Source: Bacteriovoracaceae bacterium
GTDB lineage: Bacteria > Bdellovibrionota > Bacteriovoracia > Bacteriovoracales > Bacteriovoracaceae
Reading direction: 5' to 3'
NCBI GenBank assembly: GCA_947441615.1
Contig: CANEUH010000001.1
Coordinates: forward strand, 62,001 to 126,000
DNA: 64,000 nt
Position 1 is the first letter of the stretch. Every line of letters starts with the position of its first letter. A program made the translations under genes and the position numbers. Shown in pieces: positions 50,601 through 62,369 of the stretch. The notes beneath the pieces are model-generated. The model saw only the letters and a program-made list of their open reading frames with translations, was not told where the DNA came from and did not search any database.

Positions 50601-52361
50601 GTGTCTTTGATTGTGTTATATTTCTTATATTCATTAAGTTTATTGGCCGACGTTGAACTCCTTCCCGTAGAAGTCAAAGGTCTAAAAGAACTAAATACCT
50701 TTAGTTTCTCAGATCAAGTTTCCATCGGAGAAGAGGAGCTTCAAAATCATCCCATTGGTCTCATTTCAAGTGATTTAGAAAAAATACCTGGAGTCATTGC
50801 AAGTCAAAATGGGGGACCTGGGGGACGGATCTCATTTTTTATCAGAGGAACTGAGAGTAGACACGTTTCTTTCATTCTAGATGGACTAAAAATAAATGAC
50901 ACTTCAAACACTGATAGACAGTTTGATTCATCTTTTTTTACTTCACCATTTTTAAAAGAAATCACTTTGTCTAAAGGACCTCAAGCCGTTCTATATGGAT
51001 CTGATGCGATGGGTGGTCTCATCGAATTAAAAACAAGAAAAGGTGAGAGGGCCCCTGAAACGAGACTCAATATTTCTGGCGGAAGTTATGGGACTATTTC
51101 ATCATCTCTCTCTAATGACTGGAAAACGACTAAGCACAACGGTTCTATCACTTATTCAACTTTTCACACTGACGGTTTATCAAGGCTCAACAAGAAAAGA
51201 TTTGATGCTAAGGAGCAAGATGCTACGGATATTACGCAAGCCCTTTCTTCGTCGGAACATAGGTGGGGAAATAAGACGCAAACTGATTTGTTAGCAGGAT
51301 TTCTTCGAGGAAAGTCGGAGCAAGATGGATTATCTAATGATAACTCACATGACTATAGTCGGAATGATCAATACCTTCTTCAGCAGAAAACAAATCTTGA
51401 ATTTTCTAAAGATCAGGCGATTTCCCTCAGGTCAGGACTTAATCGGCACCAGAGGTTAAATAATAGCTTAGTCTCACATAAAGATTTTTTTAATGGAGAT
51501 CTTTATCAAAACGAATTTCTTCATCGTATTAAGAATGAAAGGATCGATTTACTTTCAGGAGTTTCATCCGAGCATGAGAGAGCTAAAGCAAATGAACTCA
51601 ATAGATCTTTTGATCTCCATTCTCTTTTCCTACAAAGTGCTCTTAAAGTTGAAATGTTGAAATTTCATCTAGGTGGTAGGATCGATCGTCATTCAAAGTA
51701 TGGTGAATTTAAAACTGGTTCTATAGGAATCTCTGCAGGGGAGCTTAGCTTTCAATACTCTGAAGGTTATAAGGCCCCATCTCTTTATCAACTTTATGGC
51801 CCAGATTCATTTGGCTCGCCAGTTGGAAATGCTAATCTTATTCCTGAAACGAATCATTCCCTTGAATTAATGTGGAAAAAATCAACTGATCAATTTGAGA
51901 CATCTGTCACAGCTTTTCAAAATCGCTTATCTAATCTTTTTACCTATATCTTTGGCCAAGGCTATATCAATCAACAAAGATTTATTGCTGAGGGAGTTGA
52001 ATTAAATGGAAAAATTAAAGATAACTTTTACTCGATTTCAATGAATCTTACTCACCAAAACTTTAGAGAGGAAGAGTCGCCAGTTTTAAGGCGTCCCTAT
52101 AATTCAGCTTCTGGAACTCTGTCTTATTTTCCATCTGAAACAATTGAAGTTAATTTTCTGGGCCGCTGGTACTCTAGTCGAAAAGATGTAACTTCAAAAT
52201 TAAATGGATTTGAAGTCTTTGAACTAGGAATGAGAAAAAAATGGTCTCAAGATGAGATTTCGATTCAGTTGAAAAATATTTTTGATCGTGAATATGAGGA
52301 GGTTTATGGATTTAGTGTTCTAGGTCGATCTGTCTTCACAGGTTACGAACACCGCTTTTAG
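50601..52361 (+). CDS. btuB: BtuB-like TonB-dependent outer-membrane receptor
   Basis: This 586-residue receptor imports cobalamin, judging from the riboswitch in its leader. Signal peptide (MSLIVLYFLYSLSLLADVE), probable TonB box region (LLPVEVKGL, about 19-27), plug domain with IPGVIASQNGGPGGRISFFI, RGTESRHVSFILDGLKIND and LSKGPQAVLYGSDAMGG (about 62-142), then a 22-strand-type barrel to YEHRF. It begins with GTG immediately after the riboswitch GAGGAGG. Its stop overlaps the convergent gene by four bases. Confidence 0.9.
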   Translation: MSLIVLYFLYSLSLLADVELLPVEVKGLKELNTFSFSDQVSIGEEELQNHPIGLISSDLEKIPGVIASQNGGPGGRISFFIRGTESRHVSFILDGLKINDTSNTDRQFDSSFFTSPFLKEITLSKGPQAVLYGSDAMGGLIELKTRKGERAPETRLNISGGSYGTISSSLSNDWKTTKHNGSITYSTFHTDGLSRLNKKRFDAKEQDATDITQALSSSEHRWGNKTQTDLLAGFLRGKSEQDGLSNDNSHDYSRNDQYLLQQKTNLEFSKDQAISLRSGLNRHQRLNNSLVSHKDFFNGDLYQNEFLHRIKNERIDLLSGVSSEHERAKANELNRSFDLHSLFLQSALKVEMLKFHLGGRIDRHSKYGEFKTGSIGISAGELSFQYSEGYKAPSLYQLYGPDSFGSPVGNANLIPETNHSLELMWKKSTDQFETSVTAFQNRLSNLFTYIFGQGYINQQRFIAEGVELNGKIKDNFYSISMNLTHQNFREEESPVLRRPYNSASGTLSYFPSETIEVNFLGRWYSSRKDVTSKLNGFEVFELGMRKKWSQDEISIQLKNIFDREYEEVYGFSVLGRSVFTGYEHRF

Positions 52362-52666
52362 TGAACGATTTTATCTTTCGAATCCTCAAAGCAGCATGAG
52401 CCGTCATGTCCTTCCATTTCCTCATCAAGGCTCTTTTTATACTCCCTCATCTGATCAGAGGTTAAACCAAGGGAATTTGAAAGAGTTTCTGAAAGAGTGG
52501 GGGAAATGACCTCAACGTCTAATCCCATTTTCTCCATTTCTGCTGCGAAACTATAAGCTTTTTCTGAATCCTCAATCCCACATTCGAAAAGGCTTTGCTT
52601 GGTTTGAACATCGATCACGAGGATTTTTGACTTTTCTTTTTCCATATTCCGATGGTAGTAATCCAT
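52358..52666 (-). CDS. Small acidic protein with C-terminal HDGSCC motif
   Basis: The product has 102 residues, cytosolic, with mixed alpha/beta pattern (KSKILVIDVQTKQSLFECG, then KAYSFAAEMEKMGLDVEVI) and a tail with HDGSCCFEDSKDKIVH, where Cys-Cys and His could bind a metal. No family recognised. Start: ATG 52666 follows AAAGGGGGTT; an alternative ATG at 52645 has no site. It is convergent with btuB and divergent from the receiver protein gene. Confidence 0.55.
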   Translation of the reverse strand: MDYYHRNMEKEKSKILVIDVQTKQSLFECGIEDSEKAYSFAAEMEKMGLDVEVISPTLSETLSNSLGLTSDQMREYKKSLDEEMEGHDGSCCFEDSKDKIVH

Positions 52667-52693
52667 AACCCCCTTTGTCAAAGGATACTCTCA

Positions 52694-53047
52694 GTGGGAC
52701 TGATTCTCCTGGTAGATGAAAATAAATTTGTGACGGATCTCTTAGATAAAGTCTTCAAAAAGAAGAACTTAGCATTCTATACATTGAATTCTGCCAAGGA
52801 TTTTGTTTACCTTGTGAATGACTTAAAACCAGAGCTGATTGTGATTGATTCTAAGACGGCGCTCAATGAGATGGCCGACTTAAAGAAGCAGATTGATGGT
52901 TCCAAGGAACTTGGAGCTCTTCCCTGGATTATTCTCGGTGAATCCTCCGAGTTAGCTTTTATTCCCAATAAAATCGGCCAAATCAATCGTCCATTTGACC
53001 CTTTTCATATTCCAGATCTGATTGAAAAGATTGTAAAATCTAACTAG
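52694..53047 (+). CDS. Degenerate receiver-domain (CheY-like) protein
   Basis: The 118-residue protein is a single receiver domain. VGLILLVDENKFVTDLLDKV starts the first strand with the acidic pair (DE), ELIVIDSKT holds the phospho-acceptor Asp, and WIILGESSE the fourth strand. The fifth-strand Lys is Arg (INRPFD where KPF is usual), and the switch Thr is changed. Phosphorylation chemistry may be impaired. Start: GTG 52694 with AAGGAT seven bases upstream. A short open frame follows it. Confidence 0.65.
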   Translation: MGLILLVDENKFVTDLLDKVFKKKNLAFYTLNSAKDFVYLVNDLKPELIVIDSKTALNEMADLKKQIDGSKELGALPWIILGESSELAFIPNKIGQINRPFDPFHIPDLIEKIVKSN

Positions 53048-53067
53048 TCTTAATTTTAGAGGAATAA

Positions 53068-53163
53068 ATGAATCGAGATAAAATCGTCCTTACCGCGGGA
53101 ATCACTTTGACATTATTAGTCTTCGCTTTGACGCTTTACTTCCGAAGTGGTGCCTTCCGCTGA
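53068..53163 (+). CDS. 31-residue single-helix membrane peptide
   Basis: A small frame (MNRDKIVLTAGITLTLLVFA then LTLYFRSGAFR) has AGAGGA six bases before the ATG and a hydrophobic helix of about 20 residues. It follows the receiver gene by 20 bases in the same direction. Its last 48 bases overlap the end of the minus-strand DnaA-like gene. It looks like a genuine small membrane protein, though too short for certainty. Confidence 0.5.
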   Translation: MNRDKIVLTAGITLTLLVFALTLYFRSGAFR

Positions 53164-53526
53164 TTTATAAGAACCAAACTTTGGAGTAGGTAGTCGTTCT
53201 GATTGTGAAAGGAAAAAAGAAGAAAGTTTTTTATCCATAACGCTCAGGAGAATATCTACGAGCTCATGATAATGAGTGTGAATCCATTGGGCAGTGAAAT
53301 GATTGGGAACTTCAAGGATAAGAACATTATCAGAGATCACGAGAGGCTTTACGTTCTTAAACCATTGATGATGAATCTCTGGCCCTAAAACATCTGTAAG
53401 CTGATCAGATAAAATTGACCATAAGTATGAAGCCTTCACAACGGGGTGAGCGAGATTAAGGCTTTTTTCTTTTAACTGCGCTTTTTTTGCAGTCCAACGA
53501 AGTTTAAGGTTACGTTTTTTTTTCAT
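53116..53526 (-). CDS. Stand-alone DnaA N-terminal (domain I)-like protein
   Basis: The product has 136 residues. The core (about 35-98) matches DnaA domain I: LWSILSDQLTDVL, then IHHQWFKNVKPLVISDNVLI, then LEVPNHFTAQWIHTHYHELV. In DnaA this domain binds DnaB and regulators and self-associates. Here the ATPase and DNA-binding domains are absent. The N-terminus is basic (MKKKRNLKLRWTAKKAQLKE). It has no Shine-Dalgarno; the bases before ATG read CTCTCCTCCCC. It follows hflX in the same direction. Confidence 0.65.
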   Translation of the reverse strand: MKKKRNLKLRWTAKKAQLKEKSLNLAHPVVKASYLWSILSDQLTDVLGPEIHHQWFKNVKPLVISDNVLILEVPNHFTAQWIHTHYHELVDILLSVMDKKLSSFFLSQSERLPTPKFGSYKSAEGTTSEVKRQSED

Positions 53527-53575
53527 GGGGAGGAGAGATTAGTCCCTAAGAAAAAAACTGACAACAAAATTCCGA

Positions 53576-54907
53576 CTAAGAGAAGGGATTATGTTCCCAT
53601 TCTTTTGCTTCTGATGGCGCCAAAATGTAGCTATTGAGACCTAGTTGTTGGAAAATGAAATCTGGTACTCGGATTCGATAAAAAATCCCTTGCTCATGAG
53701 AAACAGAGTTCATGATGTTGGCGTTCCCTCTAATTCGAGAATGAGCTTCTCCCGCCTCATAGGGAATAAAGAGGTCGTAATGGTCTTGTTTTGATAAAAA
53801 ATAATTGATGATATGGTCTCTAAGATTTTTCATATCACTTTCATCATATGATGAAACGAGAAAGCTGTTTGGATAGTTGCGCATAATGATTCGCGCTCTC
53901 ACTGGATCATTAAGTAAATCCTTTTTATTAAATACAATCACCTGCTCTTTTTCTTCGATCTTTAGATCTTTCAACACTTCTTGAGTTACTTGAATGTGCT
54001 TTTGATAATTAGGGTCAGAGATATCACAAACAATAACAAGAAGATCTGCTTCCATCGCAGATTCAAGCGTTGTTTTGAATCCTTGAATCAGTGTATTGGG
54101 TAAATTTGAAATAAAGCCCACCGTATCAATCATAATCATGGGTGGCTTAGAATCTGGATTTAGCGTTCTAAAAGTTGAATCGAGAGTCGCAAAAAGCTTG
54201 TTCTCTTCAAGAACATTCACTTTACACAAACGATTCATGACTGATGATTTTCCTGCATTCGTGTAACCAACGAGTGCAGCCGTAACGGCTTGGTTTTGGC
54301 GTTTTTTTCTTTGTTGTTCTCGGGATCTTTGAACTTCGTCGAGTTGTTTTTTATAAAATTCGATCCTCTCCCGGACCATCCGTCTATCAAGTTCAAGTTG
54401 CTGTTCACCTTCCCCACCAATCGCCGCTCCGGAAGCACGCTGTTTAGAGAAGTGACCCCACATACTCGTTAAGCGGGGTAATAGATACTTTAGACGTGAG
54501 ATTTCGATTTGAATCTTCGCCTCTTTGGTTCTTGCATGAAGAGCAAAGATTTCTAAAATGATAGTATTTCTATCGACAGCTTCAAGTTTCGTAATTTCTT
54601 TTATGTTTCTCGCCTGTGAAGCGGTTAACTCAAAGTCAAAAACAAGAACTTGAGAGCCTTCTTCTCTGGCGGCATCTGCAATTTCTTCTAACTTGCCTTC
54701 TCCGAGCATTGTCGCAGGATCAATTTGCTTTCTATTTTGGACATACTCTTCACCAGGAACTAACCCAAGTGTACGAAGTAGTTCTCTTAATTCTCTAAGC
54801 GAATTATTTGTCTCGAGTATCGTGGAATGATTTTCAAACTTATCACAAACGATTGATACGAGAGATGCTTTTTGCCCTAATGGCAGTTTAAATTCTTCCT
54901 GATTCAC
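53576..54907 (-). CDS. hflX: HflX ribosome-splitting GTPase
   Basis: HflX binds the 50S subunit and rescues stalled ribosomes. The 443-residue protein has the N-terminal GTP-binding-associated domain with ASVSIVC-like start and EYVQNRKQIDPATMLGEGKL, a glycine-rich/helical linker (RASGAAIGGEGEQQLELDRR), G1 GYTNAGKSSVMNRL (about 212-225), G3 DTVGFISNLP and G4 NKKD, followed by the C-terminal domain. Start is GTG 54907, overlapping the panC stop (GTGA). It is read with the coenzyme A genes. Confidence 0.92.
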   Translation of the reverse strand: MNQEEFKLPLGQKASLVSIVCDKFENHSTILETNNSLRELRELLRTLGLVPGEEYVQNRKQIDPATMLGEGKLEEIADAAREEGSQVLVFDFELTASQARNIKEITKLEAVDRNTIILEIFALHARTKEAKIQIEISRLKYLLPRLTSMWGHFSKQRASGAAIGGEGEQQLELDRRMVRERIEFYKKQLDEVQRSREQQRKKRQNQAVTAALVGYTNAGKSSVMNRLCKVNVLEENKLFATLDSTFRTLNPDSKPPMIMIDTVGFISNLPNTLIQGFKTTLESAMEADLLVIVCDISDPNYQKHIQVTQEVLKDLKIEEKEQVIVFNKKDLLNDPVRARIIMRNYPNSFLVSSYDESDMKNLRDHIINYFLSKQDHYDLFIPYEAGEAHSRIRGNANIMNSVSHEQGIFYRIRVPDFIFQQLGLNSYILAPSEAKEWEHNPFS

Positions 54908-55758
54908 TGAACCTCCACTTGCATGTTATCTAGGAGACGGGTCGAACCCATCTGGTAGACAGCAAGGATTGTAATGTTTTTTGAATGACTTATATCTTCT
55001 GAAAAAGTTTCGGAATCTCTTATCTCTAGATAATTCCAGTTCGGATCTTTGAGTGTCTCCGTGATAAAACTATTGGCCTTTGGAATATTGACCCTTTTTT
55101 GATCAATAATATTTTTAATTATTGAAAGAGTATTAAACAATAGGAGAGATGTGGATTTTTGCTCAGCTGTGAGGTACTGATTTCGACTCGACAGTGCTAG
55201 ACCCTCAATTTCTCTGATAATAGGCATTCCCTGGATTTTTATTGGTAAGGCGAGGTCATTGACCATTTGTTTTATAACTAAATATTGCTGATAGTCTTTA
55301 AGACCAAAATAGGCCTTACTTGGTTTAATAATATCAAAAAGTCTGTACACAACTGTCGCAACACCATCAAAGTGCCCAGGCCGAATCTTACCCTCAAGAA
55401 CTGTGCTTAATCCATTGACTGAAATCACCTGGTGTCTGTCTTTGGGAAACACTTCATCTGGATTTTCTGGTGCGTAGATAATAACTTTTGAATCAGGGAA
55501 ATGGATGAGAGTGTTCTCAATTAATTCAATATCTCTTTCGAGGGTTCTCGGATAGCGATTAAAATCTTCCGAAGGTCCGAACTGTTTAGGATTAACAAAA
55601 ATTGAAAAATAAACGGTTTTAAATTCTTTTAAGGCCTCATGAAGAAGAGAGATGTGTCCTTGGTGAAGATTACCCATCGTAGGAACAAATCCGATATCTA
55701 ATAATTCGGTTTGTCTCTCTTTAATGAGGTCCGAGGTCTTCAAAATACATTTAATCAT
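54904..55758 (-). CDS. panC: Pantothenate synthetase
   Basis: PanC condenses pantoate and beta-alanine with ATP. The 284-residue protein has the HIGH-like TMGNLHQGHISLL (about 27-39), VNPKQFGPSEDFNRYPRTLE (about 53-72) and KDYQQYLVIKQM (about 150-161), and SSRNQYLT; these match the family. Start: ATG 55758 overlaps the coaBC stop by eight bases (ATGATTAA); an open frame runs ten codons further upstream. Confidence 0.94.
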   Translation of the reverse strand: MIKCILKTSDLIKERQTELLDIGFVPTMGNLHQGHISLLHEALKEFKTVYFSIFVNPKQFGPSEDFNRYPRTLERDIELIENTLIHFPDSKVIIYAPENPDEVFPKDRHQVISVNGLSTVLEGKIRPGHFDGVATVVYRLFDIIKPSKAYFGLKDYQQYLVIKQMVNDLALPIKIQGMPIIREIEGLALSSRNQYLTAEQKSTSLLLFNTLSIIKNIIDQKRVNIPKANSFITETLKDPNWNYLEIRDSETFSEDISHSKNITILAVYQMGSTRLLDNMQVEVQ

Positions 55759-56980
55759 GTTTTTGACCCTCATACCATGTGACAAGTTTCTCTCCTAATT
55801 GAGCCTTACTTAGTTTTATGGGACCCTCAATTGAGTCCATTCTCACAAAAAAGTATTCCCCTTCATTTCTTTGAAAGCCCTCGACTTGAGGTGATCCTAT
55901 GAGTCCATTTGAAACTTTGTTCCCAATCATAAGATCAACCGGCTTACGATTCATCTTTTCCATGAAAACGTCTCTGGTCGTTTCCGTCTCGGCAGCAAAA
56001 CTGATCACTTTTTGATGTTTCTTTAAGTGAAGTATTTCTTTTAAGATGTCGGCAGCTTGCTTGAATGGGAGACTATTACCCATGGTCTCTTTTTTTAGTT
56101 TTACTTCTGATGGATCAAATTCAATATCTGCTATGGCCCCAGTCGAAATATATAAATCTGATCCTGGGAAAAACTTAACGGCAGCATCTTTCATCAACGC
56201 TGTGGTTGGTGTCTTTAATAGATTAAAGTGTGGATGACCCTCCAGATTTTCTACTTCTTGAGTGCACTGATGTCCTGCCAAAACTAAAACTTCATAACCA
56301 GCAGATAAAAAAGCTTTGGCGACAGAAAGACCCATCTTCCCACTAGAAGGATTGGTGATATATCTCACCGGGTCTAGTGGAGATGCCGTGGCACCCGCCG
56401 TAATAATGATTTTTTTATTTTTTTTGAGATTGGGAGTAAATGTTTCGATAAGATCAACAACTGAACTCACTTCAGGAAATTTACCTGCCCCAACATCCCC
56501 ACAGGCCAATAGACCAGAGGTTGGATTAATGATGCCCACATGAGGCATAGCACTCAGCTTCAAGACATGTTCTTTAATTCTTGGGTTATTCCACATCTCA
56601 GTGTTCATTGCCGGAAAAAGAACCACTGGTTTTTTTCCAATGGCAAGAAAAACACTTGTGAGAAGATCATTCGTGATGCCAGTCGCAAGTCTTGATAAAG
56701 TATTCGCAGAGGCCGGTGCAATAATGAGTTTATCTGCCCATTTAACAAGTTCAATGTGAAGAACAGTTGATCCTAAATTCAAATGATTTGGCCTAAAATC
56801 ATCTTGAGGAAGATAGACTGCCTCTACGCCGATATACCGGAACGTTTCTGGTTTAATAAATTCCAGAGATCCTTGAGTTAAAACAACTTTTACCTGATGT
56901 CCGTTTTTAATCAGGAGCCTTGCTACATCAAAGCTTTTGTAACTTGCGATTGAACCAGTGATTCCTAAAAGAATATTCAT
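55751..56980 (-). CDS. coaBC: Bifunctional CoaBC (phosphopantothenoylcysteine synthetase/decarboxylase)
   Basis: CoaBC converts 4'-phosphopantothenate to 4'-phosphopantetheine in two steps. The 409-residue fusion has the FMN-dependent CoaC half (GITGSIASYKSFDVARLL, H/PASANTLSRLATGI near 85-98 and the active-site ACGDVGAGKFPEV near 160-172) and the CoaB half (TAGATASPLDPVRYITNPSS, and the AAETE motif). Start: ATG 56980 overlaps the coaX stop (ATGA). All motifs are intact. Confidence 0.95.
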   Translation of the reverse strand: MNILLGITGSIASYKSFDVARLLIKNGHQVKVVLTQGSLEFIKPETFRYIGVEAVYLPQDDFRPNHLNLGSTVLHIELVKWADKLIIAPASANTLSRLATGITNDLLTSVFLAIGKKPVVLFPAMNTEMWNNPRIKEHVLKLSAMPHVGIINPTSGLLACGDVGAGKFPEVSSVVDLIETFTPNLKKNKKIIITAGATASPLDPVRYITNPSSGKMGLSVAKAFLSAGYEVLVLAGHQCTQEVENLEGHPHFNLLKTPTTALMKDAAVKFFPGSDLYISTGAIADIEFDPSEVKLKKETMGNSLPFKQAADILKEILHLKKHQKVISFAAETETTRDVFMEKMNRKPVDLMIGNKVSNGLIGSPQVEGFQRNEGEYFFVRMDSIEGPIKLSKAQLGEKLVTWYEGQKHD

Positions 56981-57720
56981 AGAATTTCTATTTGTGTTGT
57001 CATCCAATAATGAAGGGCCCAGTGTATCAAATGGGGATGGGTCTCTACAACTAGGGTCTTTTTCTCTTCCTCAAAGAAAGGCTCCCAACTACTTGATCCT
57101 CCGCCCGTGATGAGGATTTTTCTAATCTGATTATCAGAAATGATCATTTTGGCGAGTGCAGCAAAAGCGGCATAACTACCGGCCATGGCCTCTTTTGTTT
57201 CTTTTGGGAGTCCATCTTGTTTTATAAAGTTAAGTTCTACTTCTTTTAATTTTTCACCCTTCTGGAAAGAATCAAAATATGAATGTATTCCGGGAATAAT
57301 ATACCCGCCCATAAATCCGGCTTCGCTTACAACGTCCATCGTAACAAAAGTTCCGGCATCAATGATAAGAGTGGGAGTCTTATCTTTTTTAAAAGTAAAA
57401 AAGGCTTCAATTAATCTGTCTTCGCCAAGAGTCTCTTTATAGGAGACCGGCATTCCGGCAAAACGAGATCCTTTCCAATAGTCCTTCACTCTCGTGATGA
57501 GAAACCCTTGCTCCTGGAGTTTTGTGATTTCCTCTTCTCTAGACTTAACTTCACAGACGACCACACTCGAATTGTCTGCATTCATCCCAAGTTGATTGAG
57601 AAAAATACTTAATTCAGCTAAAGGAGTGACTTTGATGAGGTCCCATTTATGATTATTTTTTTGAAAAAGACCAGCGTGAGGATGAGAATTACCAAAGTCT
57701 AGTGTAATTAGTCCCTGCAT
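56977..57720 (-). CDS. coaX: Type III pantothenate kinase
   Basis: CoaX phosphorylates pantothenate, the committed step of coenzyme A synthesis, and is not inhibited by CoA. The 247-residue protein has phosphate motifs LITLDFGNSHPHAGLF (about 4-19), GEDRLIEAFFTFKK (about 98-111) and TLIIDAGTFVTMDVV (about 116-130) typical of type III enzymes. Only one base lies between panB and this gene. Confidence 0.93.
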   Translation of the reverse strand: MQGLITLDFGNSHPHAGLFQKNNHKWDLIKVTPLAELSIFLNQLGMNADNSSVVVCEVKSREEEITKLQEQGFLITRVKDYWKGSRFAGMPVSYKETLGEDRLIEAFFTFKKDKTPTLIIDAGTFVTMDVVSEAGFMGGYIIPGIHSYFDSFQKGEKLKEVELNFIKQDGLPKETKEAMAGSYAAFAALAKMIISDNQIRKILITGGGSSSWEPFFEEEKKTLVVETHPHLIHWALHYWMTTQIEIL

Positions 57721-57721
57721 A

Positions 57722-58483
57722 CTAATGCCTTTGGTCCTTTAGGTATTTTTGAATAAGTTCTTTTTTTAATTCATAAAGATTTGCAACGGGTATACAGAAT
57801 TTTGGAGGAGTTTTTGGCCCCAATTTTAACAAATCATTTATGACAAGTACCTGACCATCCGTTTGTTTCCCTGAACCAATTCCTATGGTCGGTATTTGGA
57901 GTTCTTGTGAAATTTTTGTTGCGACAGATTCTTCAACCATTTCTAGCACGATCGAAAAACAACCTGCAGCTTGAAGGGCCAAAGCTTCCTTTAATAATCT
58001 CTCTGCATCCGTTTCGTTTTTACCGTGAGTAAAATAACCACCGAGTTGATGAACTGACTGCGGCGTGAGTCCAATGTGGCCCATGACTGGAACTCCGGTT
58101 TGAGTCAGTCTTTCAATAAGCTTTAATTGGTAAGGGAAGGCACCTTCAAGCTTGATGGCTTCACACTTTGTTGCTTGAAAAAGTTTTGTCGCCGATTGAA
58201 GTCCTTGGTTTACAGTAGAATATGAACCAAAAGGAAGATCGAGGATCAAAAATTTATCGGGTGCACCTCGACGGACCGCTTTACCAAAAATTTCCATTTC
58301 AATGAGGCTCACTTCAATAGTGGTGTCATACCCCAACATGACATTGCCAAGGGAGTCTCCCACGAGAATCATATCGAGCTCGGTTTCATTTAACATGGAA
58401 GCGGTTTGGAAGTCATAGCAGGTTAAGACTTGAAGGTTTTTTTGTTTTGATTTTTTGATCTCTCGTAAATTTAATTTCTTCAT
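57722..58483 (-). CDS. panB: Ketopantoate hydroxymethyltransferase
   Basis: PanB adds a hydroxymethyl group to alpha-ketoisovalerate to make ketopantoate. The 253-residue TIM-barrel protein has YDFQTASMLNETELDMILVG, GDSLGNVMLGYDTT (about 42-55), KLEGAF near 111-116, MGHIGLTPQSVHQLGG (about 134-149) and a catalytic Glu in VLEMV. The ATG overlaps the stop of the preceding reductoisomerase-like gene (ATGA), so the two products are made together. Confidence 0.95.
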   Translation of the reverse strand: MKKLNLREIKKSKQKNLQVLTCYDFQTASMLNETELDMILVGDSLGNVMLGYDTTIEVSLIEMEIFGKAVRRGAPDKFLILDLPFGSYSTVNQGLQSATKLFQATKCEAIKLEGAFPYQLKLIERLTQTGVPVMGHIGLTPQSVHQLGGYFTHGKNETDAERLLKEALALQAAGCFSIVLEMVEESVATKISQELQIPTIGIGSGKQTDGQVLVINDLLKLGPKTPPKFCIPVANLYELKKELIQKYLKDQRH

Positions 58484-59412
58484 GGATTTTCCTGTTTCAT
58501 CTTTTCAAAGGTCATTTGCAAAGGAGAAGCCTTCCAGCGGTTGATAATCCTATTTCTTATTTCGTCTACATTTGCTTCATCGATCTCTTGATTAAACGAT
58601 CCATCTTGAATCTCGGATAAGAGTGAATTCAGATTGTTTTGAAATCCATTTGTGAATAACTTTTGAAACCCTTTTTCGGAACCTATGAGTGCATTCGGAC
58701 TGATAAGATCAAAAAATCCTTTAGGACCAACATCAACCATGGCATTTACAATTAATTTCAATTCGTGCCAACACTCAAAGTAGGCGAGCTCCGGTTCAAT
58801 CCCTTTTTCAGTTAGACCGCGGAACATTTCTGAGGCCGCATAGGGAATGAGTGAGCAGAGGAGTCCTTGCTCTGAGTAAAGATCGGCTTCGGTTTCATTT
58901 TTAATCGTTGTTTTATAAGGTCCTAAGTTGATACCAAGGGCCTTAGAGAAATTTTTCATCCACTGCTCAAATAGGAGCGAGTCACCATGAAAATGTTCTA
59001 TTGAATATACGGCACCAAGCTTGCCTTTTATTTGAAACTGCTTTCTCAATTCAGATCCAATCGACTTTGGTGCGTAGAGAACATGATTGATATTTGGGTA
59101 GAGAAGTTCAAATTGGTGCTTGAGGAGAGAGTAACCATGAGCATAAAGAATCGTTGTTCCGGGTCGAAAATGCTCTCCATAATTTTTTAAAAATTCGACA
59201 TGAAGATGATCCGGGATCAAGAGGGCATAGATTTCATCCTGAAAAAAATCACTCGATCCAATTTCTACCGCCTCTAGACCACTGGACGCAACACTTTCAA
59301 AAGAAGCATTTTTGCTCCTTAAGGCCACTCTTACTGGAAAATTTGAATCCTTAAGGTTAAAGGCCCAGGAGCGCGCCTGGTTTCCGAACCCAATGATTGT
59401 TAGTCGCATCAT
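58480..59412 (-). CDS. Ketol-acid reductoisomerase homologue, probable ketopantoate reductase
   Basis: The product has 310 residues and resembles class I IlvC. The Rossmann motif GFGNQA is at 8-13; YAHGYSL carries His92 and YAPKSIGS Lys116. The metal site keeps Asp177 and Glu181 (ETEADLYSEQ), Glu213 and Glu217 (ECWHELKLI) and Ser238 (ISPNA), at class I spacings (4, 32, 4, 21). It heads a pantothenate operon that lacks panE, so it likely reduces ketopantoate to pantoate. IlvC is known to do this in Corynebacterium. Start: ATG 59412 begins just before the Rossmann strand; no good Shine-Dalgarno is seen, and 59472 is possible. Confidence 0.8.
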   Translation of the reverse strand: MMRLTIIGFGNQARSWAFNLKDSNFPVRVALRSKNASFESVASSGLEAVEIGSSDFFQDEIYALLIPDHLHVEFLKNYGEHFRPGTTILYAHGYSLLKHQFELLYPNINHVLYAPKSIGSELRKQFQIKGKLGAVYSIEHFHGDSLLFEQWMKNFSKALGINLGPYKTTIKNETEADLYSEQGLLCSLIPYAASEMFRGLTEKGIEPELAYFECWHELKLIVNAMVDVGPKGFFDLISPNALIGSEKGFQKLFTNGFQNNLNSLLSEIQDGSFNQEIDEANVDEIRNRIINRWKASPLQMTFEKMKQENP

Positions 59413-59487
59413 AAAATTGAGGTGTTTGAAACTCCTGATCCAAGCTATCATGTTTAAGTCAGACTTGGCCAAATTTTAAGGGGAAAC

Positions 59488-60288
59488 GTGACTGATAATA
59501 ATAACCGGGCGTTCATGTATGGAGAGTCCGTATTTACTACGATGAGGCTCTTAGATGGGACCCTTTCAGACTGGGATCTTCATTACGATAGACTTCAGAA
59601 GGGTGTCGAATTTCTTTACGGTCCATTTACCGACGGGGATGACTGGACTCATAAGCTTAAAAATCGTCTGGAGTCCAAATTTCTTGATCTGTCCGGGGAT
59701 AAAATTCTTAGGCTCTCTGTTTATCGAGAGCAATCCAGAGGACTTATTCGAAGCGGATTAATTTCTGTCACTGATTTAAAGGTTCATCTCTCGCAAGGTC
59801 CATTAGACCAATCGAGATATATAGATAAAACGATAAAACTTCGTACATGCCCAGCACCAATGCGGCCTCATTGGTGGCCATCATTTCTCAAAGCTGGGAA
59901 TTATCTAGAAACAATTCTTGCTCAGAAAATGTTCATGCGACCTGATGATGATGATGTTTTATTTTTATCCCAAGATGACACGGTGTTGGAATCTTCAGTT
60001 GCCAACATCTTTGTGGTTAAACATGACAAGCTCTATACAGCTCCCTTGGGTGCAAATGTACTGGATGGAGTCATGAGGAAAAAAATTATTCTATCGGCTC
60101 CAGATGTTTTTAAAGATGTGGACGAAACAGAAACGACGATTGAGCAATTATTTAAAGCAGACGCAGTATTTGGGTGTAATTCAGTAAGAGGACTATTTAT
60201 AATAGACCGTATCGATGACCATGAGATTAAATATAATGAGGAATTTAAAGTTAAATTTGAAAGGTTAAAAAGTTTGGTTTTCAAATGA
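59488..60288 (+). CDS. pabC: Class IV aminotransferase, aminodeoxychorismate lyase-like
   Basis: The 266-residue PLP enzyme has AFMYGESVFTTMRLLDG (about 8-24), the catalytic lysine in FLKAGNYLETILAQK (about 132-146) and SSVANIFVVK (about 171-180), typical of class IV aminotransferases. PabC makes 4-aminobenzoate for folate; branched-chain or D-amino-acid transaminase activity is the alternative. Start: GTG 59488 with AAGGGG at eight bases. It overlaps yacG by four bases. Confidence 0.78.
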   Translation: MTDNNNRAFMYGESVFTTMRLLDGTLSDWDLHYDRLQKGVEFLYGPFTDGDDWTHKLKNRLESKFLDLSGDKILRLSVYREQSRGLIRSGLISVTDLKVHLSQGPLDQSRYIDKTIKLRTCPAPMRPHWWPSFLKAGNYLETILAQKMFMRPDDDDVLFLSQDDTVLESSVANIFVVKHDKLYTAPLGANVLDGVMRKKIILSAPDVFKDVDETETTIEQLFKADAVFGCNSVRGLFIIDRIDDHEIKYNEEFKVKFERLKSLVFK

Positions 60289-60503
60289 AACAATTAGAAG
60301 TTATTTGCCCAACATGCAAGAAAAAATTTAATTATTACGCTTCAAGCTTTAGACCATTTTGTGACGAAAGATGTCGCTTGATAGATTTAGGACAGTGGCT
60401 TTCAGAATCCTATTCCGTTCCTGTTCAAAAACTTACGATTGAAGAACAATTAACACTAGAGCAAATTGCCAATGAAAAAGAAAGCGATCAAGAAAACGAA
60501 TAA
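60285..60503 (+). CDS. yacG: YacG-type zinc protein (DNA gyrase inhibitor)
   Basis: The 72-residue protein binds zinc with CPTC near 8-11 and the FCDERC pair near 26-30, followed by DLGQWLSESYSVP, the standard YacG sequence. YacG inhibits DNA gyrase in E. coli. Its coding end overlaps the suhB-like gene by 32 bases. Confidence 0.92.
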   Translation: MKQLEVICPTCKKKFNYYASSFRPFCDERCRLIDLGQWLSESYSVPVQKLTIEEQLTLEQIANEKESDQENE

Positions 60504-61335
60504 AAAGAGTGAACTTAATCTTAATAAAGTTTTAAATCAAATGATTCAATGGTCATTTGAATGTGGAGAGATTTTAAATAATCATCTTATCGATTCATAC
60601 AATGCCCCTTTAAAGATCATCGATAAGGGTAAGCAAGGAGTCGCAACTGAAGCAGATATACTCTCAGAAAAATATGTGATGGAAAAAATTCATGAGTTTT
60701 ATCCTGATCATAAAATCTTGTCCGAAGAGGACGCATTCGCCCGAGAACTTAAACTTGAGGGGCCCAGTGACGAAGAGTATCTTTGGTTAATCGATCCCTT
60801 GGATGGAACTAATAATTTTTATAACCGAGTTCCATTTTTCGGAGTCAGTCTGGCGCTTAATCGCGGAAACACCACATTGATTGGAGTTGTCTATAATCCA
60901 GTGAATTGCGAACTTTTTTATGCAGTTAAGGGCGAGGGTGCCTTTATGGTTAGGCTTATTGGATCTAAAGAGGTGAGAATTCAGCTCAAAAAGCAGAAAA
61001 AGAAAAAAAGTTTCAAAGAAGCTCTTTTATCGGCCAATCTAACGAGTAAACGCGTTGAAAAAGATCTTTTAAAAGAATTTCCAGAAGTTCGTGCCATGAG
61101 AAGGTTTGGAAGTGCTGCTCTTGAAATGAGTTACGTCGCTGCTGGAATGCTAGATGCTTACTGGGAGCATCGACTTCAGCCTTGGGATATGGGGGCAGCA
61201 GGACTTATTTGTCTTGAAGCTGGTGTAAAAATATCAAGTATTGACGGTTCTGATTACAATCCCTTTAATTCTTCAGTTCTTTGCTCTGGAGATGATCTTT
61301 ATGGACCACTCTTGGTCATTCTTAACAAGAAGTAG
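60472..61335 (+). CDS. suhB: Inositol monophosphatase family protein
   Basis: The 287-residue protein carries the lithium-sensitive phosphatase motifs ILSEED (about 80-85), DPLDGTNNFYNRVPFFGVSL (about 107-126) and WDMGAAGLICLEAG (about 241-254). The N-terminal 20 residues are very basic (MKKKAIKKTNKKSELN). SuhB-type proteins dephosphorylate inositol phosphates and, in some bacteria, also act in rRNA transcription. Start: ATG 60472 is within yacG; TTG 60466 would add two residues. Confidence 0.88.
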   Translation: MKKKAIKKTNKKSELNLNKVLNQMIQWSFECGEILNNHLIDSYNAPLKIIDKGKQGVATEADILSEKYVMEKIHEFYPDHKILSEEDAFARELKLEGPSDEEYLWLIDPLDGTNNFYNRVPFFGVSLALNRGNTTLIGVVYNPVNCELFYAVKGEGAFMVRLIGSKEVRIQLKKQKKKKSFKEALLSANLTSKRVEKDLLKEFPEVRAMRRFGSAALEMSYVAAGMLDAYWEHRLQPWDMGAAGLICLEAGVKISSIDGSDYNPFNSSVLCSGDDLYGPLLVILNKK

Positions 61336-61348
61336 TTCATTGTTTACT

Positions 61349-61377
61349 TTGACATAAATTCTTATGGCCTAGATAAT
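61349..61377 (+). promoter_or_regulatory. Sigma-70-type promoter of the coiled-coil/HEAT-repeat operon
   Basis: TTGACA (61349-61354) and GATAAT (61372-61377) are separated by exactly 17 bases, 47 bases before the GTG at 61425. It is the best consensus match I found in the window. Confidence 0.75.
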
Positions 61378-61424
61378 GGGTTAAGCAGTTAAAAAATCTG
61401 GGAACTATATCCATGGAGGGGTAG

Positions 61425-62369
61425 GTGCTCGATACAGTGATTAATTATTTAGATAAGTTTGGGCCTGAGATCTTGGTTATTCAATCTGGACTCCTGGTCA
61501 TTTTGAGTACTCTGTTTTTGTGGTTGTGGTTTTCTAATCGTAGGAAATATCATAACTTAAAACATGCCATCCCCGCCAATGTCGTAAAGAGTTATCTTGA
61601 TTCAATTATTCAAAATTCTACGTCTCTAAAGTCATCACTTTTTCGTGGTGGAGGAACAGATATTAACGGGATTCCTTCGGTGATGCCCCTTGCGCATTTA
61701 TCTGGTGGTGATTCCCTAGGATTAAGTGGGGCGCCCTCAACAGCACTCATGGAAGAAATTAATCAAAAAAAGGCGATGATTTCTTCACTCGAAGCCCAAA
61801 TTTCTTCGTATCTTGCTTCTCAAAAAGAAATTGAAAATAAACTAATCTCTTATCAATCGAATCTTTCGAGTGCTGAAAATAAGGTGAAAGAATTAGAAGG
61901 GATACTTGCTGAATCAAGTAGTGGGGGCGATGCATCTCTTAAGAGTGAATTAGCAACGCTCAAAAAAGAAAGAGATGAAATTAAAGAAAAGTTAAAAGAA
62001 TTTGAAATCATTTCTGACGATCTTGCTAACCTCAAGCGTCTTCACCAAGAGAACGAACAATTAAAACGCTCTCTTGCCGCTATTCAAGGGGCGAGATCAT
62101 CAGAACCTCTTCCATCAATTGAAACATCTAATGCTCATTCAGCTGATGTCTCAGAACTTCTCGGTGATGTTGGAAAACCTTCTGAAGCAGGAAATGAAAA
62201 TAATGAAGCCTTAGATAGTTTTCTTGCGAGTTCAACTGAAGAGCCAACCTCTGGTCAACCAGATGCTTCGGCCCTGGCCGCCATGACTGAATCTGAGGGC
62301 CAGACCGATAGTAAGTCAGATAAGACGCCAGAAGATTTACTATCTGAATTTGAAAAGATGTTGGGGTAA
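61425..62369 (+). CDS. Membrane-anchored coiled-coil protein
   Basis: The product has 314 residues. An N-terminal helix (ILVIQSGLLVILSTLFLWLWF, about 15-35) anchors it, followed by a coiled coil of about 110 residues (about 110-222; KAMISSLEAQISSYLASQKE, LATLKKERDEIKEKLKEF) and a long acidic Ser/Glu/Ala-rich C-terminal tail (about 230-314). No family recognised; it could act as a scaffold or spacer at the inner membrane. Start: GTG 61425 with GAGGGG upstream. The stop shares one base with the next ATG, so the two genes are coupled. Confidence 0.7.
   Translation: MLDTVINYLDKFGPEILVIQSGLLVILSTLFLWLWFSNRRKYHNLKHAIPANVVKSYLDSIIQNSTSLKSSLFRGGGTDINGIPSVMPLAHLSGGDSLGLSGAPSTALMEEINQKKAMISSLEAQISSYLASQKEIENKLISYQSNLSSAENKVKELEGILAESSSGGDASLKSELATLKKERDEIKEKLKEFEIISDDLANLKRLHQENEQLKRSLAAIQGARSSEPLPSIETSNAHSADVSELLGDVGKPSEAGNENNEALDSFLASSTEEPTSGQPDASALAAMTESEGQTDSKSDKTPEDLLSEFEKMLG

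Follow-up and report, generated by a model that had tools for sequence, protein, structure and literature searches.

We found that the gene at positions 58480-59412 of the window (the whole stretch of 64,000 nucleotides of Bacteriovoracaceae DNA analysed here) very probably encodes the ketopantoate reductase of the pantothenate pathway (probability about 0.88). The protein belongs to the class I ketol-acid reductoisomerase (KARI, IlvC) family, and it would serve PanB and PanC in an organism from which the valine/isoleucine pathway is gone. The features of the locus are:

58480-59412, minus strand: KARI-family gene, 310 aa from ATG, proposed ketopantoate reductase (open reading frame, KARI_N/KARI_C matches, predicted fold)
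58480-58483, minus strand: ATGA overlap of the KARI stop and the panB start (window letters)
57722-58483, minus strand: panB, ketopantoate hydroxymethyltransferase, 253 aa (PF02548, 301 bits; TIGR00222, 272 vs cut-off 208)
56977-57720, minus strand: coaX, type III pantothenate kinase, 247 aa (PF03309, 82 bits; TIGR00671, 71.5 vs cut-off 58.2)
55751-57007, minus strand: coaBC, 418 aa from TTG (TIGR00521, 308 vs cut-off 220)
54904-55785, minus strand: panC, pantoate-beta-alanine ligase, 293 aa (TIGR00018, 272 vs cut-off 213)
53576-54907, minus strand: hflX-like GTPase gene after panC, outside the pathway (GTP-bdg_N and GTP-bdg_M matches)
59488-60288, plus strand: class IV aminotransferase (pabC-like), divergent from the KARI gene (PF01063)
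58699-59139, minus strand: codons of the catalytic H92, K116, D177, E181, E213, E217 and S238 (residue alignment)
58873-59367, minus strand: codons of the pan-type markers W16, I118 and S180, mostly H/Q, P and G in normal IlvC

The KARI gene heads the operon KARI-panB-coaX-coaBC-panC, all on the minus strand, and panB, coaX, coaBC and panC each exceed the cut-off of their Pfam model and that of one or more NCBIfam models. The preliminary description had placed the gene at these positions with no strand given, joined to panB by an ATGA junction and followed by coaX, coaBC and panC; the one 310-residue frame on the minus strand, the overlap of the KARI TGA with the panB ATG, and the Pfam/NCBIfam order of the downstream genes all bear this out. 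A search for a known riboswitch 5' of the operon gave no Rfam match at the gathering threshold within 52000-62000. On the 3' side, the hflX-like gene is also found after panC in many related loci (an uncounted impression). At 53116-53526 (minus strand), a protein of 136 aa has the DnaA N-terminal domain as its sole Pfam match (PF11638, 47 bits), the rest of DnaA being absent; it might be a replication regulator.

The relationship to IlvC claimed earlier holds in family and in fold. The window protein matches KARI_N with 71.4 bits (cut-off 20.6) and KARI_C with 90.2 bits (cut-off 29.1), its AlphaFold model (17 sequences) has a mean pLDDT of 93.7, and all 50 Foldseek matches listed are KARIs, with query TM-scores of 0.73-0.89. 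It lies under every IlvC equivalog cut-off (TIGR00465, 157.5 vs 226.15; NF004017, 167.5 vs 336). Membership in the PanE/ApbA and PanG/DUF2520 families was searched for with ApbA_C (PF08546) and DUF2520 (PF10728), and the protein matched neither.

All seven catalytic residues are kept (H92, K116, D177, E181, E213, E217 and S238, aligned with normal IlvC), and we assume that the H, K, D, E, E, E and S have their catalytic roles in the window KARI. The spacing of D-E-E-E-S is 4, 32, 4 and 21, the same as in normal IlvC; that of H-K is 24 vs 23 and that of K-D is 61 vs 59-60 (window KARI vs normal IlvC). Hence, of the earlier statement that the class I catalytic residues are kept at exact spacing, their presence stands and the exact spacing does not. 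Loss of the metal ligands was considered and rejected, as the ligands are present. For three of them, the counterparts of D315, E319 and E496 of spinach KARI, the role is described in PMC11264209.

The assembly that carries the window (3.26 Mb, 40 contigs, 92% complete) holds a single KARI by profile search. Hence the gene is not a paralogue in this genome, contrary to the preliminary description, and no second ilvC was found. Another KARI_N (PF07991) match in this genome was rejected as a real ilvC, since by eye it reads as an adenosylhomocysteinase. Across the 92%-complete assembly there was no match to IlvD, to the PanE C-domain (PF08546) or to DUF2520 (PF10728), in agreement with the claimed absence of panE and panG. 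Three TPP-enzyme matches are present, one MenD-like (179 bits, under cut-off) and two indolepyruvate-oxidoreductase-like, and an acetolactate synthase was rejected on these grounds. The combination of a separate panE with a full ilv pathway lacking another ilvC was not seen in this genome.

We extended the search to a near-relative set of 38 genomes (the window's own, 23 of the same genus and 14 of the same phylum); a contig scan with one query protein gave 16 near relatives. Among named assemblies the nearest are Bacteriovoracaceae MAGs, several of them titled Bacteriovorax stolpii, and, at 43%, a Halobacteriovoraceae MAG. KARI was found in 30 of the 38 genomes and panB in 34. Within the genus, 23 of 24 genomes have KARI; the sole member with no match (G020) is an assembly of 59% completeness in which panB starts right at the edge of a contig. 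IlvD was found in 0/38 genomes, hence in 0/24 of the genus, and the PanE C-domain likewise in 0/38. DUF2520 was found in three of the 38, all three without KARI. In one genome of the genus (G012) there is a gene resembling acetolactate synthase (366 bits vs cut-off 538) and no IlvD match.

These searches bear on the reading that the protein is an ordinary IlvC, still making branched-chain amino acid precursors and merely relocated beside panB. Such an enzyme would be expected to look as this one does in fold, family and all seven catalytic residues, but its partners were not found: none of the 24 genus genomes searched, the window's own included, has an IlvD match, and the TPP-enzyme matches of the own genome are of MenD and indolepyruvate-oxidoreductase type. 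Where IlvD and acetolactate synthase are both lacking, a KARI can play no part in branched-chain synthesis, while PanB and PanC still need a ketopantoate reductase.

We then counted profile matches in a phylum sample of 289 genomes, each at least 85% complete, and found KARI_C in 116, panB in 253, IlvD in 4, the PanE C-domain in 16 and DUF2520 in 131. In 14 control genomes the IlvD search was positive in 14, the PanE C-domain search in 8 and the DUF2520 search in 2; the low rates of the last two reflect the patchiness of both families. Among the 253 panB genomes, 114 have KARI only, 130 have DUF2520 only, one has both (G241) and eight have neither, and KARI is present in 115 of the 253 vs 1 of the 36 genomes without panB (G027); Fisher tests on these counts ignore relatedness and are descriptive only. 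The earlier proposal that the KARI replaces PanE thus gains support from gene content, as KARI tracks panB and excludes DUF2520 in the phylum sample. Four families (f1, f8, f12 and f20, read off tables) contain both KARI genomes and DUF2520 genomes, which suggests repeated swaps.

Several genomes depart from the common pattern. Of the eight panB genomes with neither KARI nor DUF2520, three have a PanE-like gene and five have no match of a known type (G043, G061, G070, G181 and G273, searched for KARI, DUF2520 and the PanE C-domain), so other ketopantoate reductases may exist, or genes were missed. An IlvD/EDD-family gene (PF00920) occurs in G221 and G272 with no KARI match, and their gene may therefore not be IlvD. 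One genus (g14) is mixed, with KARI in G111 and G172, where the pan operon is of the KARI type, and DUF2520 in G058, G092, G098, G132 and G169; either whole-operon exchange or a binning error would account for this.

To compare neighbourhoods, loci were fetched around every KARI match of the phylum sample and the near-relative set, and a KARI was called panB-adjacent when its frame ends at most 300 bases from a same-strand panB frame, KARI first. We found a panB-adjacent KARI in 96 genomes besides the window. The order KARI-panB-coaX-coaBC-panC among queried genes is present in 75 of these 96 loci (67 + 8); the remainder show fewer genes, partly due to contig ends. In 45 of the 96 related loci the KARI stop reads ATGA (counted on the letters at that stop alone). 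Of the 97 panB-adjacent KARIs, 95 (94 of the 96 fetched, plus that of the window) retain the full set of seven catalytic residues, the exceptions being G197 and G101.

Of the 116 genomes with KARI in the phylum sample, 92, window included, carry it immediately ahead of panB. The other 24 comprise 20 with lone IlvC-like KARIs (families f3, f4, f5, f9, f13 and f16) that lie off panB in genomes without IlvD, one at a contig edge (G039), two with pan-type KARIs away from panB (G236 and G243), and G241. Hence, as the 20 lone KARIs without IlvD and the KARI of G027 without panB indicate, KARI can persist without pan linkage. Four of the lone KARIs (L059, L061, L252 and L255, from G026, G034, G050 and G056 of families f4 and f13) carry N in place of the metal-binding D, and G or K in place of the last E, with no IlvD in their genomes; they are possibly pure reductases.

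In other lineages the place before panB is taken by a DUF2520 gene, which precedes panB in all six such loci inspected (G028, G029, G036, G141, G241 and G254). The four of these that were fetched (G028, G141, G241 and G254) have the order DUF2520-panB-panC-coaBC. For two of the DUF2520 proteins a profile search gave DUF2520 as the sole match, without any hit to a KARI model. That the protein is a reductase is suggested by this domain match and by two distant PDB relatives, one of them named a putative NADP oxidoreductase. Francisella PanG presumably belongs to the DUF2520 family.

The exchange of genes at this place argues against a reductase of some other 2-keto acid, tied to CoA or to the divergent aminotransferase. 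KARIs are promiscuous reductases (PMC4353338), which lends that idea some plausibility. On that reading, however, no recognised ketopantoate reductase would remain in 111 of the 115 genomes that have both panB and KARI (the exceptions being G059, G164 and G270, where a PanE-like gene stands alongside KARI, and G241, with DUF2520), and in the other lineages' loci inspected it is DUF2520 that stands in this position ahead of panB. We give it the least credence of the readings considered.

The remaining two of the four IlvD genomes serve as natural controls. In G241, one contig carries leuA, ilvD, ilvB and a normal ilvC (441 bits), and a different contig carries DUF2520-panB-panC-coaBC. G245 has clustered ilvD, ilvB, ilvC (389 bits, cut-off 226) and leuA, and at a second, separate locus KARI (158 bits)-panB-coaX-coaBC-panC. 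The ilvD, ilvB and leuA genes of both genomes score above the TIGRFAM cut-offs.

An IQ-TREE phylogeny was built with 85 of 135 sequences (the window and five others of its genus, one per genus elsewhere in the window's family, and all others); the B. subtilis plasmid stretch L126 was left out of the references because its match is in two pieces. In this tree panB-adjacent KARIs separate from IlvC: a branch with 100/99 support parts 50 pan-type rows from 35 IlvC-like rows. The 50-row side holds all panB-adjacent KARIs used and those of G039, G236 and G243. The 35-row side holds 11 plasmid-derived reference KARIs, both ilv-linked KARIs, the 20 lone KARIs and the extra KARIs of G236 and G260. As the tree is unrooted, it shows the split but not its direction.

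This separate clade, and the score of the window protein (157 bits vs cut-off 226, where the ilv-linked KARIs of G241 and G245 reach 441 and 389), weigh further against an ordinary, relocated IlvC, which we regard as very improbable. The extra KARIs of G236 (L228, 6258-7331) and G260 (L241, 6083-7102) are second, divergent copies with the catalytic K changed to R, and they group with a KARI-like gene of Eleftheria, which is flanked by one gene with a thioester-reductase domain and one with an fkbH domain.

Columns that differ between the two sides of the tree include W16, I118 (two residues after the catalytic lysine) and S180 (beside a metal-binding glutamate). We found W-I-S in 90 of the 97 panB-adjacent KARIs, and H/Q-P-G in both ilv-linked KARIs and in 9 of the 11 plasmid references. 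The two references that depart from H/Q-P-G, one from Haladaptatus (annotated ilvC) and one from Eleftheria, also have the catalytic K changed to R, and they were excluded from the 'canonical' group of the column comparison before counting. The lone KARIs are mixed at these sites, the middle one being mostly A or P and the last G or S. In spinach numbering, W16 is presumably Q140 and N240 presumably T520, by a mapping that we infer. Simulations place Q140 and T520 of spinach KARI close to the active site (PMC11264209).

These results lead us to favour, by a modest margin over its negation, a broader account: an anciently split KARI lineage, dedicated to ketopantoate, would be fixed as the first gene of the CoA operon in Bacteriovoracaceae-like genomes and in scattered families of the phylum, alternate with DUF2520 in the same place, and have lost useful isomerase activity through second-shell changes (W16, I118 and S180) with the metal ligands kept.

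Activity on acetolactate may persist, as the isomerase metal ligands are kept in 95 of the 97 panB-adjacent proteins. A bifunctional KARI, with ketopantoate reduction as its main activity and acetolactate activity retained and used in some members, as in the IlvC of C. glutamicum or Buchnera, would fit this conservation; the IlvC of Buchnera and of B. subtilis perform both jobs, according to the papers cited below, and within the genus G012 has its acetolactate-synthase-like gene. But G012 is likewise without an IlvD match, and G245 seems to split the two jobs between two KARIs. We consider such dual use improbable. Because the metal ligands remain, we are less sure that the window KARI acts on ketopantoate alone than that it has the proposed role in the pantothenate pathway.

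In the proposed pathway, PanB converts ketoisovalerate to ketopantoate, and the KARI-family protein would reduce ketopantoate to D-pantoate, probably with NADPH at its Mg-binding site. PanC then joins pantoate and beta-alanine, and CoaX and CoaBC lead onward to CoA. As acetolactate synthase and IlvD were not found, the ketoisovalerate would have to come from valine, imported or prey-derived, by transamination. The divergent class IV aminotransferase at 59488-60288 is a possible candidate for this supply, with PabC as the alternative. Its nearest solved sequence is an aminodeoxychorismate lyase, and it is poorly conserved beyond the genus (mostly 22-32% identity). A class IV aminotransferase gene is divergent and nearest upstream among queried genes in 78 of the 96 related loci. 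The host group, mostly predatory, appears unable to make valine. Reduced pathways for nine costly amino acids are described for most of 89 Bdellovibrionota proteomes in PMC11988736.

If the assignment is right, it supplies the reductase for CoA biosynthesis in this largely predatory phylum, and in at least 97 genomes a KARI gene should not be taken as a sign of valine biosynthesis. One operon place would then be filled by unrelated reductase families. G245, which has both enzymes, and the 97 panB-adjacent KARIs set against normal ones would form a natural series in which to study how an enzyme with isomerase and reductase functions turns into a plain reductase with the metal site kept.

Ketopantoate reduction by members of the IlvC family is known already. 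It is reported for IlvC of B. subtilis (PMC11487621), Buchnera (PMC4306246) and Salmonella (PMC5965847), and for C. glutamicum as cited in PMC4353338. Our search of open-licence literature for a KARI dedicated to the pan operon, or for a link between ilvC and pantothenate in bacteria of the Bdellovibrio type, gave moonlighting IlvC only among the matches listed; within that scope, what is new is a separate KARI lineage bound to the pan operon in organisms without the ilv pathway.

Compared with class I IlvC (PF07991/PF01450), the window protein shares the fold, both domains and the seven catalytic residues, but it has W-I-S instead of H/Q-P-G, an N-terminus about 16 residues shorter, scores below the equivalog cut-offs, a separate clade, and a place in a pan operon with no ilv genes found in its genome. 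The moonlighting IlvC of C. glutamicum, Buchnera, B. subtilis and Salmonella carries out the same reaction as that proposed here; it sits in the valine/isoleucine pathway and doubles as ketopantoate reductase, whereas the window KARI heads a pan operon in a genome where that pathway was not found. PanE (ApbA family, PF08546) has the same proposed reaction and is of a different family. The DUF2520 (PanG-type) proteins of sister lineages hold the same place before panB as the window KARI in the six loci inspected, with a different operon order in the four fetched.
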